Part shown: one piece after another, positions 4,463 through 34,948 of the stretch
Layout: every line of letters begins with the position of its first letter
Numbering within the stretch: the stretch's first letter is position 1
Source: Candidatus Gastranaerophilales bacterium
GTDB taxonomy: Bacteria > Cyanobacteriota > Vampirovibrionia > Gastranaerophilales > Gastranaerophilaceae
Assembly (NCBI GenBank): GCA_944323625.1
Contig: CALUTD010000018.1
Coordinates: 1 to 48,274, forward strand
Direction: 5' to 3'
DNA: 48,274 nt
Program-made: the position numbers and the translations under genes
The notes under the pieces: model-generated
What the model saw: only the letters and a program-made list of their open reading frames with translations
Told to the model about the DNA's origin: nothing
Database searches by the model: none

Positions 4463-7114
4463 TTATACAACACCGTTGAATGCATCGATGTAGATTTTTT
4501 TGATGTCTGACATCAACGGATATACAGGGTTAGCACCTGTACATTGGTCATCAAATGCCAATTCAACAAGTTCATCCAAGTTATCCATAAATGTCTTTTC
4601 ATCAACACCAAAATCTTTGATAGAGTTCGGAAGATTAATTTTCTTCATCAGGTCATCAACAGCTTTGATTAACAATTCAACTTTTTCGTCGTCATTCTTA
4701 CCGCCTAAGCCGAGTTCATCTGCAACTTGACCGTATTTTGCTTTAGCACAAGGGAATTTGTACTGCGGGAAGATTGCTTGTTTCTTAGGTGCATCAGAAG
4801 CATTATATTTAATAATTTGTCTTATTAATAATGCGTTAGCAACACCGTGAGGAACATGGTACATTGCACCTAGTTTATGCGCCATAGAGTGACACAAGCC
4901 TAAGAAAGAGTTAGCAAATGCCATACCTGCAATAGTTGCGGCATAGTGCATTTTTTCTCTAGCCATCGGGTCATTTGCACCTTCATTGTATGAGCGTTCA
5001 AGATATCTGAATACCAATTTAGTTGCTTCTAAAGCATTCGAATTAGTGAAGTTAGTTGCCATACAAGAAACATAAGCTTCAAGTGCGTGAACTAAAGCGT
5101 CAATACCTGATGCAGATGTTAAACCTTTAGGCATACCATCAACAAAGTTAGGATCAACAATTGCCATATTAGGTGTTAAGGCATAATCAGCAATTGCGTA
5201 TTTAACATGAGTTTCATCATCAGTAATAATTGCAAACGGAGTTACTTCACTACCTGTACCTGATGTTGTAGGAATAGCAACCATCATAGCTTTTTTACCC
5301 AATTCAGGAATACAGCAGATTCTTTTTCTAATATCCATAAATCTCATAGAAATATCTTCAAAGTTAATATCAGGTTGTTCATACATTAACCACATAATTT
5401 TTGCAGCATCCATAGGAGAACCGCCGCCCAAAGAAATAATTACATCAGGTTCAAAAGGTCTTAATGTAACCATAGCTTGATTAATTGTTGATAATGTAGG
5501 ATCCGGTTTTACATCAAAGAATACTTCGTGTTCAATACCGATTTCATCTAAAACTTTAGTAATATTATCAACGGCACCTGAATTAAACAAGAATCTGTCA
5601 GTAACAATAAATGCACGTTTTTTGCCTTGAAGTTCTCTGAGTGCTAGGTCTAAAGCTCCTCTTTTGAAGTATACTTTAGGCGGAACTTTGAACCACAACA
5701 TATTTTCTCTCCTTTCAGCAACAGTTTTGTAGTTTAATAAGTTTTCAACACCAATATTACCGGAAATGGCATTTTTACCCCAAGAACCACAACCTAAAGA
5801 AAGTGAAGGTTCAAGTTTAAAGTTGTATAAATCACCAATACCGCCTTGAGAAGAAGGAGAGTTGATTAAAATTCTGCAAGCAGGCATTTTTTCAGCATAT
5901 TTGTCAATTCTTTCTTTTGATCTTTCGTCGGTATAAAGAACTGCAGTATGACCTGCACCGCCTTTAGAAACAAGTTCATAAGCCATTTCAGCAGCCTGAT
6001 TAAAGTCTTCAGCTCTATACATAGTTAAAATCGGAGATAATTTTTCTCTTGAGAAAGGATCCGACCAATCAACAGATGGTCTTTCGCAAAGTAAAATTTT
6101 TGCGTTTTCAGGAGTTTTAAATCCTGCAAGTTCTGCTATTTTATGAGCGGACTGACCTACTATTGAAGGATGTGCAGTACCTCTTTGTGGATCAATAAAC
6201 GGTAAATCAATCATTTTCTTTTCATCTGATTTACTAACAATATATGCGCCTCTATATTCAAATTCTTTTTTAACTTTTTCATAAACGCTGTCAACAACAA
6301 CTACTGATTGTTCAGAAGCACAAATCATACCGTTATCGAAAGTTTTTGACATAAGGATAGAAGAAACTGCCATTTGAATATCAGCTGTTTCGTCTATAAC
6401 AGCGGAAGTATTACCGGGGCCTACACCTAATGCCGGGTTACCTGATGAATATGCCGCTTTAACCATGCCGGGGCCGCCTGTTGCCAAAATACAATCAATT
6501 GAAGGATGGTTCATTAATGCTGCAGAGAGTTCAACAGAAGGAACATCAATCCAGCCGATAATATCTTCAGGGGCACCTGCTTTAACAGCTGCATTTAAAA
6601 CTAATTTTGCAGCTTCAATTGTACATTTTTTTGCTCTAGGGTGGGGAGAGAAGATTATTGCATTTCTTGTTTTCAATGCTATTAATGATTTAAATATAGC
6701 TGTAGAAGTCGGGTTTGTGGTAGGAACAATACCTGCCAAAACACCTAAAGGTTCAGCTACTATTTTAATACCGTTAGCTTTATCTTCTCTGATTATTCCG
6801 CATGTTTTTGCGTTTTTATGTTTATTATAAATGTATTCTGATGCAAAATGGTTTTTAATAATTTTATCTTCCAAAACGCCCATGCCTGTTTCTTCAACAG
6901 CCATTCTTGCAAGAGGAATACGTGCTTTATCTGCAGCTGCTGCAGCTGCTTGAAAGATTGCATCTACTTGTTCTTGAGAATAAGTAGCAAAAATCTTTTG
7001 TGCTTTTTTAACTTTAGAAATCAACACTTCCAGTTGATCCAAAGTTTCAACAACATTAGATTGCTTAAGCGCTTTTTCTAATGCTTCAACATTTTTGTTG
7101 CTTTTTGTTGCCAT
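4463..7114 (-). CDS. adhE: Bifunctional acetaldehyde-CoA/alcohol dehydrogenase AdhE
   Basis: AdhE reduces acetyl-CoA to acetaldehyde and then ethanol, using two NADH, and so regenerates NAD+ in fermentation. The 883-aa length is normal for the fusion. The N-terminal aldehyde dehydrogenase half has the catalytic cysteine in N-G-M-I-C-A-S-E-Q (about residue 265). The C-terminal iron-dependent alcohol dehydrogenase half has G-G-G-S-P-M-D-A-A-K and the iron ligands in G-L-C-H-S-M-A-H-K and H-V-P-H-G. The frame runs on upstream to 7312, but the family start is MATKSNK, with AAAGGA 11 bases before the ATG. AdhE normally forms long helical filaments (spirosomes). Control by the adjacent Rex is likely, though no clean Rex operator was found. 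Confidence 0.97.
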   Translation of the reverse strand: MATKSNKNVEALEKALKQSNVVETLDQLEVLISKVKKAQKIFATYSQEQVDAIFQAAAAAADKARIPLARMAVEETGMGVLEDKIIKNHFASEYIYNKHKNAKTCGIIREDKANGIKIVAEPLGVLAGIVPTTNPTSTAIFKSLIALKTRNAIIFSPHPRAKKCTIEAAKLVLNAAVKAGAPEDIIGWIDVPSVELSAALMNHPSIDCILATGGPGMVKAAYSSGNPALGVGPGNTSAVIDETADIQMAVSSILMSKTFDNGMICASEQSVVVVDSVYEKVKKEFEYRGAYIVSKSDEKKMIDLPFIDPQRGTAHPSIVGQSAHKIAELAGFKTPENAKILLCERPSVDWSDPFSREKLSPILTMYRAEDFNQAAEMAYELVSKGGAGHTAVLYTDERSKERIDKYAEKMPACRILINSPSSQGGIGDLYNFKLEPSLSLGCGSWGKNAISGNIGVENLLNYKTVAERRENMLWFKVPPKVYFKRGALDLALRELQGKKRAFIVTDRFLFNSGAVDNITKVLDEIGIEHEVFFDVKPDPTLSTINQAMVTLRPFEPDVIISLGGGSPMDAAKIMWLMYEQPDINFEDISMRFMDIRKRICCIPELGKKAMMVAIPTTSGTGSEVTPFAIITDDETHVKYAIADYALTPNMAIVDPNFVDGMPKGLTSASGIDALVHALEAYVSCMATNFTNSNALEATKLVFRYLERSYNEGANDPMAREKMHYAATIAGMAFANSFLGLCHSMAHKLGAMYHVPHGVANALLIRQIIKYNASDAPKKQAIFPQYKFPCAKAKYGQVADELGLGGKNDDEKVELLIKAVDDLMKKINLPNSIKDFGVDEKTFMDNLDELVELAFDDQCTGANPVYPLMSDIKKIYIDAFNGVV

Positions 7115-7286: not shown

Positions 7287-8008
7287 ATGACAAAATTATA
7301 CAAATATACCACGGGGGGGGGGTATTTTCAAGTTCAAAATCCCTTACTCTATCTGAGGTTTTGATAACTATTGTTGTTATTGGAATAGTTGTTTCAATGA
7401 CAATACCTGTCGTCATTACAAATTATAGAAAAACACAAGTTGAAGCTAAATTGAAAAAATTTTATTCTTCTATGACTAACGCAATTCGTCTTTCCGAAAC
7501 AGAAAACGGAAACAGCTCTGATTGGCCTACGAATATGAACTGGAACAGTAAAGATGAATTATATGTTTGGTTTGATAAATATATTATGAAAAATGTAAAT
7601 TTATTAACGGATTGCCGCCAGGCAAAAGATAAAAGATGTGAAATACTGCTTAACAGTGAATATACAAATGATAATATTGCGGCAATTTATATATTTTCCG
7701 ATGGCAGCTACGTAAATATTATTCCCGGCGGAGGAAAAACAGAGGGTTTAGAAAGACAATTTCATCTTAGGTATGACATTAACGGGAATAAATCACCAAA
7801 TAAGCAGGGTAAAGATATTTTTTCTTTCAGGTTTGTAAACGGACAAATTAATTGCGACGGCCATAATACAGTTACAAGTACAAGTGTTTCCCAAAAAACA
7901 GACAGAAAAAAACTCATAGAATCTTGTAAACAGAGTCCGAAAACATGTACTTGCTTAATTATGAAAGATGCCTGGCTAATCAAAAAAGATTATCCTATTG
8001 CCCTGTAA
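7287..8008 (+). CDS. Type II/IV pseudopilin-like protein, out of frame at a G10 tract (phase-variable candidate)
   Basis: The gene has a ribosome binding site (AAAGGAGA, 7272-7279) and an ATG at 7287. The leader M-T-K-L-Y-K-Y-T-T-G-G-G runs into ten G (7313-7322) and then reads to a stop at 7362. The pilin body is in the -1 frame: G-V-F-S-S-S-K-S-L-T-L-S-E-V-L-I-T-I, a prepilin N-terminus with the +5 glutamate, then a helix of about 20 residues. The globular part has D-I-N-G-N-K-S-P-N and the C-terminus W-L-I-K-K-D-Y-P. These match the intact paralogue at 34949. Eight or eleven G would join leader and body, giving a protein of about 241 aa. The body frame has no good start of its own; TTG at 7361 would cut away the prepilin signal. 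It is OFF in this sequence, unless -1 slippage or a sequencing error explains the frame. The product would be a cell-surface or pseudopilus subunit. Confidence 0.75.
7313..7322 (+). repeat. Homopolymer tract G10 within the pseudopilin leader
   Basis: Ten consecutive G lie in DNA that is otherwise very poor in GC. The flanks are AC before and TATTTT after, as at the second tract at 34805. Tracts of this length slip readily in replication and act as on/off switches in known phase-variable genes. Confidence 0.95.
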
Positions 8009-34718: not shown

Positions 34719-34746
34719 TTGTATAATTTTGAATATGTATTATAAT
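34719..34746 (+). promoter_or_regulatory. Promoter of the G10 mini-locus
   Basis: TTGTAT (34719-34724), a 16-bp spacer and a perfect TATAAT (34741-34746) precede the ribosome binding site at 34767. Other TATAAT-like words nearby make the exact position uncertain. Confidence 0.5.
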
Positions 34747-34778
34747 ATATTATAATATAAATTCACAAAGGAGAAAAA

Positions 34779-34879
34779 ATGTTTAATAATCAAGTAATAG
34801 CTACGGGGGGGGGGTATTTTTAAGCAATAAATTAAACAAATATATTTATAAATTACTTGTTCAATCAATGCAGTATTAG
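34779..34879 (+). CDS. Short ORF with G10 tract, pilin-leader-like, no pilin body
   Basis: AAAGGAG (34767-34773) and ATG at 34779 open a leader M-F-N-N-Q-V-I-A-T that runs into ten G. In frame 0 it ends after Y-F (stop 34821-34823). In the -1 frame (equal to 11 G) it reads G-G-G-V-F-L-S-N-K and goes on to a stop at 34877-34879, inside the terminator loop, giving 33 aa. The leader layout copies that of the pseudopilin at 7287: threonine as residue 9, then Gly3 and V-F-x-S-x-K in the -1 frame. It has no prepilin helix. It may be a leader peptide, a small regulatory RNA, or the stub left by deletion of a pilin body. Confidence 0.5.
34805..34814 (+). repeat. Second homopolymer tract G10
   Basis: Ten G flanked by AC and TATTTT, the same flanks and length as the tract at 7313-7322. 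These are the only G runs longer than seven that I noticed in the window. Confidence 0.95.
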
Positions 34880-34892
34880 GCATTGATTTTTT
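34863..34892 (+). terminator. Intrinsic terminator closing the G10 mini-locus
   Basis: A perfect 9-bp stem AATCAATGC/GCATTGATT (34863-34871 with 34880-34888) with an 8-base loop, then TTTT. It makes the locus a separate transcript of about 140 bases and keeps it apart from the downstream pilin gene. Confidence 0.85.
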
Positions 34893-34948
34893 ATTGTAAA
34901 TATTGACTGATATTAATATATAAATATAGCTAAATAAACGGAGGATTT

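Follow-up and report, generated by a model that had tools for sequence, protein, structure and literature searches.

A G-tract leader ahead of a type IV pilin-like gene in a Gastranaerophilales genome and its probable role as a phase-variable transcription attenuator

What role could a promoter, a ribosome site, a start codon, a run of ten Gs and a terminator play when they are packed into a unit that encodes only a short peptide? The question is raised by positions 34719-34892 of the window, by which we mean the whole 48,274-nt stretch of DNA analysed, contig C18 of a 1.99-Mb assembly.

Parts and frames of the leader unit

The preliminary description of this unit had listed a promoter, AAAGGAG, an ATG, nine codons, a G10 tract and a terminator, and all of them are found in the window sequence where it had placed them (Table 1). 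The nine codons before the tract include the ATG. Translation also bears out its account of the reading frames. The G10 frame ends two codons after the tract, about 40 nt ahead of the hairpin, whereas the frame that G11 or G8 would open runs on to ...GGGVFLSNKLNKYIYKLLVQSMQY and stops inside the terminator loop. The stem of the predicted terminator is a perfect 9-bp stem (34863-34888) and is followed by the T-rich tail TTTTATTGT. The promoter, P1, is a local version of a leader promoter that recurs across the genome as TTTGnnAAAAA..AATATATGATAATATAAA in an alignment of 84 leaders, and its weight-matrix score in the window is 9.9 (p=0.005 against shuffles). Two tracts of at least eight Gs give six overlapping matches in the AT-rich window where 0.17 would be expected, and six were reached in none of 100 shuffles; together with the recurrence of the whole architecture at 23 loci this argues that the tracts are not due to chance.

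Table 1. Coordinates of the leader unit, the downstream pilin gene and a comparison pilin in the window
Feature	Position	Strand	Basis
Promoter P1 of the leader transcript, sigma-70-like, TTGAAT-16-TATAAT	34729..34756	+	consensus scan, alignment of 84 leaders, weight matrix
Shine-Dalgarno AAAGGAG of the leader ORF	34767..34773	+	sequence
Leader ORF as assembled (G10, predicted OFF), ATG at 34779, MFNNQVIATGGGYF, stop TAA 34821-34823	34779..34823	+	translation
Leader ORF, predicted ON frame (as if G11 or G8), MFNNQVIATGGGVFLSNKLNKYIYKLLVQSMQY, stop TAG 34877-34879 in terminator loop	34779..34879	+	translation
G10 tract, presumed slippage switch	34805..34814	+	sequence; one of 121 tracts of G>=8 in the genome
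Predicted intrinsic terminator, stem AATCAATGC/GCATTGATT, 8-nt loop, then TTTTATTG	34863..34896	+	window scan, 21 paralogues, family covariation
AT-rich box between terminator and pilin, TTGACT...TATAAA; candidate weak second promoter P2	34898..34930	+	
Shine-Dalgarno GGAGG of the pilin gene	34940..34944	+	sequence
Presumed regulated gene, intact type IV pilin-like protein, 217 aa, prepilin motif FTLAEVLITLVVIGIIAA	34949..35602	+	Pfam PF07963 N_methyl
Fused-class comparison pilin, G10 at 7313-7322 in its leader; member of the 53-member class	7287..8008	+	

The downstream gene encodes a protein that matches N_methyl above the cut-off (E 5.5e-05) and whose closest named relatives come mostly from Candidatus Gastranaerophilales assemblies. 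We call it type IV pilin-like on the basis of its methylation motif together with the one prepilin peptidase of the genome (Peptidase_A24, E 9.9e-11). The genome also has four T2SSE-type ATPases above the cut-off and 116 prepilin-motif matches at E<=0.1. None of the Rfam covariance models scored above its gathering score against the leader; the best match was preQ1-II with 21 bits against a cut-off of 47, and the leader was not assigned to a known Rfam riboswitch or leader. Folding of the whole leader RNA is unremarkable (z -1.3). An inverted repeat, CAAGTAAT/ATTACTTG at 34787-34794 and 34852-34859, brackets the tract in the leader RNA and could compete with the terminator or, in keeping with the fold z-score, could be a chance match.

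Paralogous leaders and their hairpins

To place the window locus among the G tracts of the genome, stretches around about 100 tracts were inspected first and then those around the remaining tracts in a YACG context. A ribosome site and a start codon lie just upstream of 84 of the inspected tracts. In 53 of these leaders one of the three frames runs from the tract into a prepilin, the arrangement of classical on/off frameshifting; the comparison pilin in Table 1 is such a case, its frame being open only with G11 or G8 and hence OFF as assembled. Another 23, the window locus included, have a leader ORF that is short whichever frame is read, and after it comes a separate pilin gene with a start codon (ATG) of its own. 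The few leaders left over are truncated or broken, or do not belong to a pilin. Classical translational phase variation was considered for the window locus and rejected, as no frame there reaches the pilin, whereas one does at the 7313 locus and at 52 others.

The AAAGGAG-ATG-G10 design of the window leader is the same in 22 further loci, one of them with the ATG lost, and a pilin gene lies downstream at every separate-leader locus. Its ATG is 103-206 nt past the tract, mostly 134-152 nt, and the intact pilin gene of the window begins 134 nt from the G10 tract, a point that the preliminary description underrated when it called the unit a stand-alone mini-locus. A unit that always precedes a pilin gene at near-constant spacing is instead a 5' leader. 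In several pilins (L016, L060, L064/L193 and the second tract of L065) the tract in the leader is reversed, so that the coding strand of the leader carries about ten Cs (a PPP stretch), with the flanking letters reversed too. Roughly one G tract in three lies outside pilin leaders, in other coding or in intergenic sequence, for example the G000 tracts in L048, L050 and L076; slippage may therefore affect further genes.

A hairpin with a T-rich tail starts 47-55 nt past the tract at 21 of the 23 separate-leader loci. At all 21 both OFF frames (G9 and G10) stop 25-51 nt before the hairpin, a double stop, TAAATTAA, right after the tract shutting these two frames. The G8/G11 frame stops at positions from 12 nt before to 76 nt after the hairpin start, and in 19 of the 21 this stop is no more than 3 nt from the hairpin start or lies beyond it. 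In L010 and L018 it lies 10-12 nt ahead of the hairpin, which is borderline for ribosome cover. Under a Markov null an open G11 frame is expected in 0.26 per sequence, and an open G11 frame with both other frames closed in 0.13, against 21/21 observed; because the copies are related (they form 12 groups at 80% identity and 5 at 70%) they amount to between about five and twelve independent trials. Natural broken copies also occur, one with ATC in place of the leader ATG (L097:914-1069) and one with the terminator lost (L007:1501-1610). Another locus, L037 (minus strand, tract at oriented position 4893), has no hairpin, and 9 nt separate the end of its ON frame from the pilin ATG; it looks like translational coupling in place of attenuation.

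The hairpin covaries. In an alignment of 19 loci, 5 of the 13 stem pairs have changed on both sides, and none of 500 shuffles was as good; when the pairing partner is slid by 1-3 columns pairing falls from 88% to at most 53%, all slid controls being worse. The tract with its double stop is the most conserved segment (91%) and the leader body the least conserved (70%). In the pilin bodies codon identity at identical residues is 0.53-0.55, which equals the random expectation, so that silent sites are saturated, and between the copies with such saturated sites the DNA from the tract to the pilin ATG is about 71% identical. The simplest reading of this conserved DNA is purifying selection, although gene conversion in the 5' part could leave the same pattern and the copies are paralogues that are not independent. 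A covariance model from whose alignment the window had been left out picks up the window locus in exact register, at the first base after the tract. The match is weak (E 0.083), which suggests that the window copy is a diverged member of the family.

Attenuation and its alternatives

We consider it likely, with a probability of roughly 0.7, that the unit, as 5' leader of the 34949 pilin gene, acts as a transcription attenuator that is phase-variable and coupled to translation. RNA polymerase would start at P1 and a ribosome would start on the short leader ORF. With G9 or G10 (mod 3) the ribosome would meet a stop a few codons past the tract and leave, the terminator hairpin would form about 40 nt further on, and the transcript would end near 34895. 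With G8 or G11 the frame would be open up to or into the hairpin, in the window as far as the TAG in the loop; the ribosome would then cover the 5' arm, the terminator could not form and the polymerase would continue into the pilin gene. Slippage of the G tract within the population would switch single cells at random, with an effect on the level of pilin, and the assembled G10 tract is predicted to be OFF. The suggestion in the preliminary description that tract length couples translation to termination thus becomes the best-supported reading, 21 paralogous loci having the same geometry and a covarying hairpin.

An alternative that we regard as unlikely is that the unit is an insulated stub, the leader and terminator that remained after the body of an old G-tract pilin had been lost, the next pilin being expressed independently from its own P2 and the leader being without effect. 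Consistent with this, the leader is similar to the N-terminal end of the 53 fused pilins, pilins that lack a G tract have their own upstream regions, and a conserved TATAAT box lies just ahead of the pilin ribosome site, similar words forming a good promoter at L173. Such a history does not, however, predict that the same frame should be open to the hairpin in 21/21 loci while the other two close within 29 nt, nor does it predict constraint on the tract, the double stop and the leader ribosome site. The resemblance to the fused pilins means that the stub of a deleted pilin, which had been put forward in the preliminary description, may describe the origin of the unit; it fails as a description of what the unit is now, since the promoter, the ribosome site, the ATG, the tract, the double stop and the hairpin have been kept across silent-site-saturated copies. 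The conserved TATAAT box past the terminator is nevertheless the main weakness of the attenuator reading. In most paralogues the box that separates terminator and pilin is conserved (89% column identity), and its TATAAT hardly varies. With one mismatch allowed the words of the box occur at 16 places in the genome, and the lone exception outside the family is L173:1480-1515 (G000 C8:62594), where ATTGGTATATAATAAT is part of a perfect TTGACA-17-TATAAT promoter that has neither a pilin nor a tract in its vicinity; this supports the view that the similar box of the attenuator loci is a promoter. The box has no good -35 in those loci, in 20 of 23 copies, the window included, the leader-promoter matrix of the genome scores the P2 region no higher than shuffles, and the consensus scan of the window reported no promoter at the box. 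The box may be a source of basal-level expression or a true second promoter, P2, for the pilin, and its nature decides between the attenuator, which we think likely, and the insulated stub, which we doubt.

It is improbable that the switch acts on translation and not on termination, with ON-frame ribosomes finishing near the pilin ribosome site and re-initiating there. L037, with its close ON stop and absent hairpin, would suit such coupling, and so would the two L110 copies, whose ON frames stop 13 and 23 nt short of the pilin ATG. In the window, however, the ON stop and the pilin ATG are 69 nt apart, and in most other copies 42-101 nt, which exceeds the reach of ordinary coupling, and there is a covarying terminator in between. 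Very improbable, in our view, is the proposal that the leader peptide is itself the product, a switchable small peptide. Several copies do have a recognisable ON-frame peptide that is K-rich and hydrophobic; against this, its length varies from 23 to 53 aa, its sequence is poorly conserved, the leader body being the segment that varies most, the frame in which the hairpin is read differs from copy to copy, and the unit always stands ahead of a pilin gene.

The assembly gives some indication of the state of the switches. The tract has an ON length in 2 of the 23 separate leaders and in 6 of the 53 fused pilins, that is, in 8/76 where one third would be expected by chance (p 4e-6); given that the copies are related and that homopolymers may be biased in an assembly consensus, this does no more than suggest a population that is mostly OFF. 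Tract lengths differ between close copies in one assembly (10 and 9 in L110; 8, 9 and 9 in L104).

Known systems, relatives and the pilin repertoire

Poly-G and poly-C tracts are known from the translational phase variation of surface proteins in Neisseria and Campylobacter. The loci described here share with them a homopolymer tract and a presumed frameshift by slippage, and the 53 fused pilins appear to work in this way; at the window locus, in contrast, the tract is in a separate upstream leader ORF, outside the pilin coding sequence. At the E. coli pyrBI attenuator an intrinsic terminator forms or fails to form according to where the ribosome stands on a leader ORF, and this system responds to metabolites, whereas the unit here would respond to heritable tract length. 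The E. coli trp attenuator (discussed in PMC3894217) is based on the same principle and differs from the unit here in the same respect.

The closest parallel is found in Streptococcus gallolyticus, in which GCAGA repeats in a leader ORF control the pilus genes of pil1 and pil3, as established by genetics (Danne et al. 2014, PMC3894217). At pil1 the OFF stop is 39-49 bp before the terminator, the ON stops are 4 bp before or within the terminator, and chloramphenicol abolishes the ON effect (PMC3894217). As at these loci, a simple sequence repeat lies here in a short leader ORF, an intrinsic terminator is predicted between leader and pilus gene, a short leader would leave the terminator free while a longer out-of-frame leader ends at or in the hairpin, and the predicted majority state is OFF. 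The features of the pil1 type that we find are a repeat in a translatable leader ORF with a ribosome site, a predicted terminator before a pilus gene and a repeat-dependent stop position. The repeat, however, is a G homopolymer and not a GCAGA pentamer, the genes are single type IV pilin-like genes and not a multi-gene pilus operon with sortase, and there are about 23 loci, in Gastranaerophilales, against the two reported in that strain. No sequence relationship with pil1 or pil3 is expected. A literature search, limited to one library, found no repeat-switched leader attenuator besides that of S. gallolyticus. The G-tract attenuator would be the known S. gallolyticus logic in a convergent and multiplied form.

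G-tract leaders with the same spacing are found in 21 of 191 family genomes and very unevenly, with 65 in the source genome, 54 in G041 and 40 in G022, and none was found in eight other species of the same genus. We take them to represent a rapid lineage-specific expansion. In G041, G022, G102, G141, G168 and G104 (L112-L160) there are 7-54 G-tract leaders each, with a leader peptide sequence of its own in each genome; most relatives have none. The attenuator covariance model matches the source genome only, among 41 genus and 288 family genomes, so the attenuator class appears to be local to the source lineage and convergent with that of Streptococcus. Those tract loci of other genomes that have enough downstream sequence are all fused to long frames, nearly all of them pilins, and no leader-terminator-pilin unit was seen among them; the other loci are cut by contig ends or ambiguous (L137, L208). 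The preliminary description had also proposed a comparison of the locus in relatives. Using the SAH hydrolase flank in five other species of the genus, no orthologous locus was found: in the four readable species the gene has other neighbours, with no pilin or long G tract, and in the fifth the contig ends beside the gene.

Taken as a whole, we give about even odds to a picture in which G tracts provide about 76 independently switching pilin genes in one small gut genome, 53 by leader frameshift and 23 by a separate leader, nearly all of the latter with a ribosome-controlled terminator, and in which nearly all are OFF in the assembly, so that a random small subset would be displayed per cell, the attenuator class having arisen in the source lineage alone and in convergence with pil1 of Streptococcus. 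If this is true, the OFF state would be a short terminated RNA and the ON state a read-through RNA, and the state of each switch could be read directly from metatranscriptomes. Repeat-switched attenuation would then be no curiosity of Streptococcus, as it would have arisen again in a distant phylum and been copied more than 20 times in one genome, and a gut commensal would gain a pilin repertoire governed by dozens of random switches.
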